A DNA stretch of 64,000 nucleotides from Terriglobia bacterium (lineage in GTDB: Bacteria > Acidobacteriota > Terriglobia > Acidiferrales > UBA7541): positions 1,364,001 through 1,428,000 of the forward strand of contig JAIQGG010000002.1 in assembly GCA_020072785.1 (NCBI GenBank). Direction: 5' to 3'. Below the pieces are notes generated by a model. It made no database searches. It worked only from the letters and a program-made list of their open reading frames with translations, and was not told where the DNA came from. This document shows, piece by piece, positions 62,861-63,595 of the stretch (position 1 is its first letter; the number at the start of each line of letters is the position of its first letter). Position numbers and translations under genes: made by a program.

Positions 62861-63595
62861 TTAGCGCACCGCCAGCACTTCCGCGGCCAGCACCAGCGGA
62901 TGTTTGGTCCGTGCATTGCGCATCTGGCGAAGAATCCTCGCCTGCGCGAAGTTCGCCGCCAGAAATTCCGCGAGGAAAGCGCCGCCTTCCTTGGCTCCGG
63001 CGATTCAGGCAAACCAGTTGCTTTCGCTGGCGCACACTTCGGCGGGCAAAGGCTCGGAGAGGACCAGTTCCGCAGCATAGAGGGCCCCGCCGGGACGCAG
63101 CACGCGCGCCAGTTCACGGAAGATGGCCTCTCGCGCCGGATTCAAGTTGAAGATGCCGTTGACCAGCGCCACGTCGATGGAAGCGTCCCGGAGCGGCAGG
63201 TTCTCCGCCGCCGCCTCGCAGAACAGAACCCGGGAGAGCCCGGCTTCCTCCGCGGCCCGCCGCGCCAGGCTCAGCATCGAACGGCTGAAATCCACACCGA
63301 TTACTCTTCCCGTTGGTCCCGCGCGCCGGGCGGCCACCAGAGCGTCCAACCCCGCCCCGCATCCCACATCCAGAACCGCCGCGCCCTCCGGTATCTCGGC
63401 GCGCACGGAAACATTGGAAACCCCGGTAAACGCCTCGACCACAACCCCTGGCAGTCCCGCCAGTAACTCCTGCGGGTAACCCACGCTTTCCGCGAACGCG
63501 CGGCCCACCGGAAACGCATGCTTCCCCAGCGGATTCTCAGCCGCGACGGAATACGCCTTCCGCACGGCATCCCGAATATCTTCCGAATTTCTCAA
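62861..63595 (-). CDS. SAM methyltransferase with in-frame UGA, selenoprotein candidate
   Basis: This protein has 244 residues if UGA at 63,005-63,007 (residue 197) is read as selenocysteine. Otherwise it stops at 196. It has a class I methyltransferase fold: VLDVGCGAGLDALVAARR (motif I), VIGVDFSRSMLSLAR (motif II), LPLRDASIDVALVNGIFNLNP and LARVLRPGGALYAAEL. The N-terminal part (SVGYPQELLAGLPGVVVEAFTGV) resembles arsenite methyltransferases. The UGA falls in ESNWFA-UGA-IAGAKEGGAFL, where relatives often have Cys. The frame then continues 47 codons to TAA. A SECIS-like hairpin lies at 62,974-62,990. Confidence 0.7.
62974..62990 (-). promoter_or_regulatory. SECIS-like hairpin after the UGA
   Basis: The RNA GGAAGGC-GGC-GCUUUCC begins 15 bases after the UGA. 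It has seven pairs, one a G-U wobble, and an apical loop GGC starting 22 bases after the UGA. Bacterial SECIS elements have a G near the start of the loop and a loop 16-37 bases from the UGA, and both conditions hold here. Confidence 0.55.

Follow-up and report, generated by a model that had tools for sequence, protein, structure and literature searches.

Evidence for a selenocysteine-containing ArsM-like methyltransferase encoded in the genome of a Terriglobia bacterium

Relation to described selenoproteins

A 2026 review includes among prokaryotic selenoproteins an arsenite methyltransferase with a UxxG motif (NF008823) and three fused or double-selenocysteine forms (NF041537, NF047649 and NF041536), and lists MduS as a protein with two selenocysteine (Sec) residues and a CxxU motif (PMC13188914). 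In the arsenite methyltransferase CmArsM arsenic is bound by Cys72, Cys174 and Cys224. Activity on arsenite is lost in the C72A variant, and the C174A and C224A variants are active on neither arsenite nor methylarsenite (PMC3877260).

The window analysed here is a stretch of 64,000 nucleotides from a Terriglobia bacterium (contig JAIQGG010000002.1), in which the frame of a SAM-dependent methyltransferase gene meets an in-frame UGA (Table 1). Under the standard code the gene yields an ORF of 196 residues, whereas reading the UGA as Sec gives a protein of 244 residues. The initial annotation had described this frame with its UGA and 47 further codons leading to a TAA, all of which was confirmed, on the minus strand. 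Apart from the UGA the methyltransferase frame is undisrupted. The TTG start is supported by a relative from the same genus (genome G007, 92% identity), which has ATG at the same position.

Table 1. Positions of the methyltransferase gene, its codons of interest and the downstream hairpin in the window
Feature	Position	Strand	Description
Selenoprotein gene (predicted), SAM-dependent methyltransferase	62861..63595	-	244 residues; TTG start at 63595; Sec at residue 197; TAA stop at 62863-62861
Val59	63419..63421	-	position of CmArsM arsenic ligand Cys72; alignment to 4fr0; survey of 87 sequences
Cys79	63359..63361	-	SAM-binding motif I (DVGCGAGLD); conserved in the subfamily and its Cys sister group by alignment
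Gly147	63155..63157	-	position of CmArsM arsenic ligand Cys174; alignment to 4fr0; survey of 87 sequences
In-frame UGA, codon 197 of 244	63005..63007	-	read as Sec197; residue context W-F-A-U-I-A-G-A
Coding part after the UGA	62864..63004	-	47 codons; conserved motifs AK/RE...FL.EF, then RNARTKxP
SECIS-type hairpin	62973..62991	-	8-bp stem, 62991-62984 with 62980-62973; GGC loop 62983-62981

Like the selenoprotein described by NF008823, the window protein is an ArsM-related SAM methyltransferase with a UxxG motif, here U-I-A-G. It differs in scoring 166.1 bits against that model, below the cut-off of 263, and in lacking the other two arsenic-ligand cysteines, the example of the review having been compared by description only. 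The best NCBIfam models also included NF041537 (ArsM/AhpD selenoprotein; 197 bits against a cut-off of 510), NF047649 (methyltransferase/UXPK-star double selenoprotein; 190 against 460) and NF041536 (ArsM/DUF2284 selenoprotein; 162 against 575). The matches to these three models cover the methyltransferase domain and end near residue 224 of 244. Proteins of these families are larger and carry a second domain or a second Sec, whereas the window protein consists of one domain with one Sec. MduS (NF045649) is likewise a methyltransferase-domain selenoprotein, but the match of the window protein is weak (32.8 bits against 380). Since the window protein remains below all four model cut-offs and has a single domain and a single Sec, it belongs to a divergent subfamily of stand-alone proteins within a kind of selenoprotein already known.

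Decoding of the in-frame UGA codon

Relatives of the gene were collected by a scan of species genomes that gave 80 related loci, mostly in metagenome-assembled genomes (MAGs); the scan was motif-guided, and the number of loci is therefore not an estimate of prevalence. All 15 nearest relatives (50-92% identity) have UGA in the same column. These belong to at least seven phyla, namely Acidobacteriota, Verrucomicrobiota, Myxococcota, Chloroflexota, Nitrospirota, Thermodesulfobacteriota and Vulcanimicrobiota, and this shared position excludes chance as the origin of the UGA. In the sister group (Woesearchaeota, Phycisphaerae and others) the column holds Cys, with the exception of locus L082, which has UGA, and Cys is also found there in aligned ArsM sequences, in agreement with the initial annotation, which had described Cys as common at this site in ArsM-like relatives. 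The homologues run through the site, and the column is either UGA or Cys.

The part of the gene behind the UGA appears to be maintained as protein. Comparison with the G007 relative gave a dN of 0.043 and a dS of 0.240 before the UGA, and a dN of 0.042 and a dS of 0.205 after it (dN/dS about 0.2). The values on both sides are alike, and the downstream part is thus selected as protein; its 47 residues are also conserved across the subfamily and under the same purifying selection as the upstream part.

The UGA is followed by a hairpin of the SECIS type. It had been described as a 7-bp stem with a GGC loop, starting 15 bases behind the UGA. The hairpin and its loop were recovered, with corrections to the stem, which has 8 bp (arms AGGAAGGC/GCTTTCCT) and begins at 13 nt after the UGA, the loop beginning at 21 nt. 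Published constraints on bacterial SECIS elements are a loop of 3-9 nt, a stem of 4-16 bp, a G in the first two loop positions, a spacing of 16-37 nt and an MFE of at most -7.5 kcal/mol (PMC13188914). The window hairpin lies within all of these, with a loop of 3 nt that starts with G, a stem of 8 bp, a spacing of 21 nt and an MFE of -12.0; the distance to the UGA thus suits a bacterial SECIS element, as had been proposed. The folding energy was no better than that of shuffled versions of this GC-rich sequence (z = +0.78) and was dropped as evidence for the hairpin. A search of the region against Rfam returned a single sub-threshold chance match and nothing else.

Support for the hairpin comes instead from conservation, covariation and the contrast with the Cys-containing relatives. 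In an alignment of 16 sequences standard pairs occupied 85.9% of the pair cells, as compared to 46-66% after displacement of the pairing partner by 1-3 columns. Covariation scored 0.233 against 0.160 for shuffled alignments, a value reached in none of 500 shuffles, and three stem pairs showed compensatory changes on both sides. RNAalifold recovered the same stem. All 16 sequences have G as their first loop base while the encoded residue varies between Gly, Val and Asp. The codons for all three begin with G, so that protein constraint contributes to this invariance. Over 79 relatives the best SECIS-like stem had a mean length of 7.7 bp in the 55 UGA genes and 4.2 bp in the 24 Cys genes (p = 3e-12, a value inflated by relatedness of the sequences), and hairpins in the Cys relatives were weaker or absent.

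The genome that contains the window is 98.9% complete and carries selA, selB, selD and two genes for tRNA-Sec (selC), both with anticodon UCA; all the sel genes to be looked for according to the initial annotation were thus found. The selD gene (C1:111200-112165, L048) has an in-frame UGA of its own, in an N-terminal AG-U-AAKLSP site that is followed by a strong hairpin. Among the genomes with the UGA form of the methyltransferase 14 of 15 had a selA match over the cut-off, compared to none of the six that have the Cys form (Fisher p = 1.3e-4, again inflated by relatedness). The one UGA-containing genome lacking a selA match is a Nitrospira MAG (L065), perhaps because the MAG is incomplete. 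Within the genus, selA exceeded the cut-off in 55 of 61 relatives and among the same-genus genomes searched, besides the window's own, only G007 had the methyltransferase gene; since nearly all relatives have selA, its co-distribution is uninformative at this level.

Two observations on sel genes stand apart from these comparisons. Most bacteria have one tRNA-Sec gene; the two in the window's genome (G000; L040 at C2:1115713-1115807 and L041 at C2:1112064-1112158) are separated by 3.6 kb and show about a dozen sequence differences. Furthermore, a selA match in another genome (G048:C56:5613-6755) contains an in-frame UGA and has its first 68 positions in a separate piece, for which a frameshift or an assembly error is possible.

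Taken from the comparative sequence data, decoding of UGA codon 197 as Sec through the normal bacterial insertion route is strongly supported, and we are highly confident that the gene encodes a real Sec-containing ArsM-like methyltransferase. When the ribosome arrives at codon 197, SelB carrying Sec-tRNA would bind the downstream hairpin, Sec would be inserted and translation would proceed to the TAA, producing a class I SAM-dependent methyltransferase of full length. The initial annotation had offered a recent nonsense mutation as the alternative, with a protein that stops at residue 196 and a decaying frame beyond it; the length of the standard-code ORF and the existence of a genuinely decaying relative in a Bryobacteraceae MAG agree with such an event, but it is extremely improbable and was rejected in view of the conservation of the UGA column across at least seven phyla, the otherwise intact frame with purifying selection past the UGA, the conserved hairpin and the complete Sec machinery. 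The decayed relative (L128:3001-3721) differs from the window gene in having frame breaks and several stops.

Fold and arsenic-ligand positions

The protein matches the Pfam families Methyltransf_31 and Methyltransf_25 and belongs to the class I SAM methyltransferases. An AlphaFold2 model, with the UGA entered as Cys, had a pLDDT of 95.4. The best structural match of the model was CmArsM (4fr0; Z 26.0, rmsd 1.9 Å over 204 residues), followed by CrArsM (5evj; Z 25.9) and 6cx6. The ArsM fold and the SAM-binding motif are thus present, and the likeness to CmArsM and CrArsM extends to the Cys224 column. Cys79 in motif I is not diagnostic, as the DxGCGxG motif is also common among other methyltransferases. 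The window protein differs from both ArsM enzymes in its short C-terminus with the RNARTKxP motif and in keeping one of the three arsenic-ligand positions, as Sec.

Profile alignment to 4fr0 placed Sec197 at Cys224, Gly147 at Cys174 and Val59 at Cys72, so that the set of three arsenic-binding cysteines is reduced to Val59, Gly147 and Sec197. Alignment and model together support a location of Sec197 next to SAM, at the site of arsenic binding in ArsM. The W..(U/C)..GA motif around it shows no variation or almost none. In a survey of the ligand positions in 87 sequences, Cys occupied both the Cys72 and the Cys174 position in 17, and the third position in each of these is Cys and never Sec. Sec was found in 58 sequences, none with Cys at either of the first two positions, and in the remaining 12 the third position is the only one with Cys.

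In a tree built with the three ligand columns left out, the Sec and single-Cys members were separated from the three-cysteine ArsMs and formed one clade of 70 (support 97), and the window protein was found within a subclade of 16 sequences that all have Sec (support 99). The window's genome has, in addition, a gene for an ordinary ArsM with three cysteines (L055). The wider clade is represented twice in a genome of the same class (G047), by the different Sec methyltransferases L053 and L012. The latter is nearly identical to L125 from a Betaproteobacteria MAG, suggesting recent transfer or contamination.

The protein is therefore ArsM-like in fold and descent, and not a demonstrated ArsM. With two of the three arsenic-binding cysteines absent, arsenite-methylating activity is not to be assumed. 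The assignment to a selenoprotein of the arsenite-methyltransferase-like group in the initial annotation holds as far as Sec, fold and descent are concerned, and does not extend to these two ligands.

Gene neighbourhoods and proposed function

The window copy is a solitary gene behind accA, with a cytochrome c gene running towards it, and the arrangement in G007 is the same. A conserved operon was looked for in the neighbourhoods of the subfamily and none was found. Three Nitrospirota members of the subfamily (L065, L071 and L073) have a gene for an ArsR-family regulator directly upstream, at about 600 nt, transcribed divergently in L071 and L073; the regulators of L065 and L071 have a C-terminal CCPV motif. 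A second ArsR-type cluster adjoins 11 further loci. In the wider clade, genes for OsmC, DsrE/DsrF-like and ArsR-family proteins and ArsR-rhodanese fusions recur beside the methyltransferase; OsmC, DsrE/DsrF-like and ArsR-rhodanese neighbours were noted at loci L085, L087, L090, L091, L093, L101, L105, L111, L117, L124 and L134. These neighbours hint at sulfur or thiol chemistry.

At a Chloroflexi locus (L075:3846-6721) the Sec methyltransferase gene is preceded by an Rv1681-type radical SAM gene and followed by genes of a selenate-type transporter, with a putative selenate ABC transporter binding protein over the cut-off of TIGR04553 together with an ATPase and a permease. The Rv1681-type gene also adjoins the methyltransferase gene in L082. 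A general link to the selenate ABC transporter was considered and rejected, the association being strong at L075 and absent from the window's genome.

In the mechanism that we propose, Sec197 would take the place of the arsenic ligand Cys224 of ArsM beside the SAM site, as the sole selenium- or sulfur-containing side chain at the three metal-ligand positions. We infer that its selenolate may hold or activate a soft substrate next to the methyl group of SAM, and that the enzyme would then methylate this substrate. Candidates would be a chalcogen compound or a metalloid in which one site is exchangeable. A single ligand suits such a substrate better than it suits free arsenite, which requires three. 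We give slightly better than even chances to this step, in which one selenolate binds the soft substrate and methylation follows. As the window gene stands alone behind accA, the substrate class is deduced from neighbours in other phyla, and these genes point in the same direction without proving it.

Two other functions were weighed. The enzyme could be an arsenite methyltransferase in the strict sense, with Sec standing in for one of the arsenic-binding cysteines and the remaining ligands coming from other residues or from glutathione. ArsM structures as the best structural matches, NCBIfam arsenite-methyltransferase models among the best matches, the UxxG motif shared with the selenoprotein listed in the review (PMC13188914) and the ArsR-type regulators adjoining some relatives are all consistent with such an enzyme. 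However, we consider it unlikely, given Val and Gly at the Cys72 and Cys174 positions and Cys at neither in any of the 58 Sec sequences, the loss of arsenite activity in CmArsM C72A, C174A and C224A (PMC3877260), the NF008823 score of 166 bits, which falls short of the cut-off (263), and the separate three-cysteine ArsM in the same genome.

Alternatively, Sec could have a redox or structural role in a methyltransferase acting on an ordinary small molecule rather than on a soft metalloid or chalcogen substrate. Many small-molecule methyltransferases occur among the similar folds and the window copy is surrounded by housekeeping genes (accA, cytochrome c), but Sec is at the substrate-ligand position of ArsM, the near-invariant W..(U/C)..GA motif suggests a substrate site, and no conserved partner thiol is evident except Cys79 in motif I. 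The probability of such a role appears to us to be low.

Returning to methylation of a soft substrate by one selenolate, the same proposal may be made for the whole group. We see about an even chance that the 58 Sec members of the 70-member clade are enzymes distinct from arsenite methyltransferases, in which one selenolate activates a soft substrate, and that, as part of the same joint reading, the stand-alone subfamily of the window protein is one branch of this group. Gene finders halt at the UGA and thereby miss the final fifth of the protein, including the residue presumed to act in its active site. The enzyme group is widely distributed, with members in Acidobacteriota, Chloroflexota, Nitrospirota, Verrucomicrobiota, Myxococcota and other phyla, and the loss of ligands in the 58 Sec sequences examined suggests that many Sec members may be wrongly labelled as arsenite methyltransferases. 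If true, the non-arsenite reading would open a selenolate-dependent methyl-transfer reaction.
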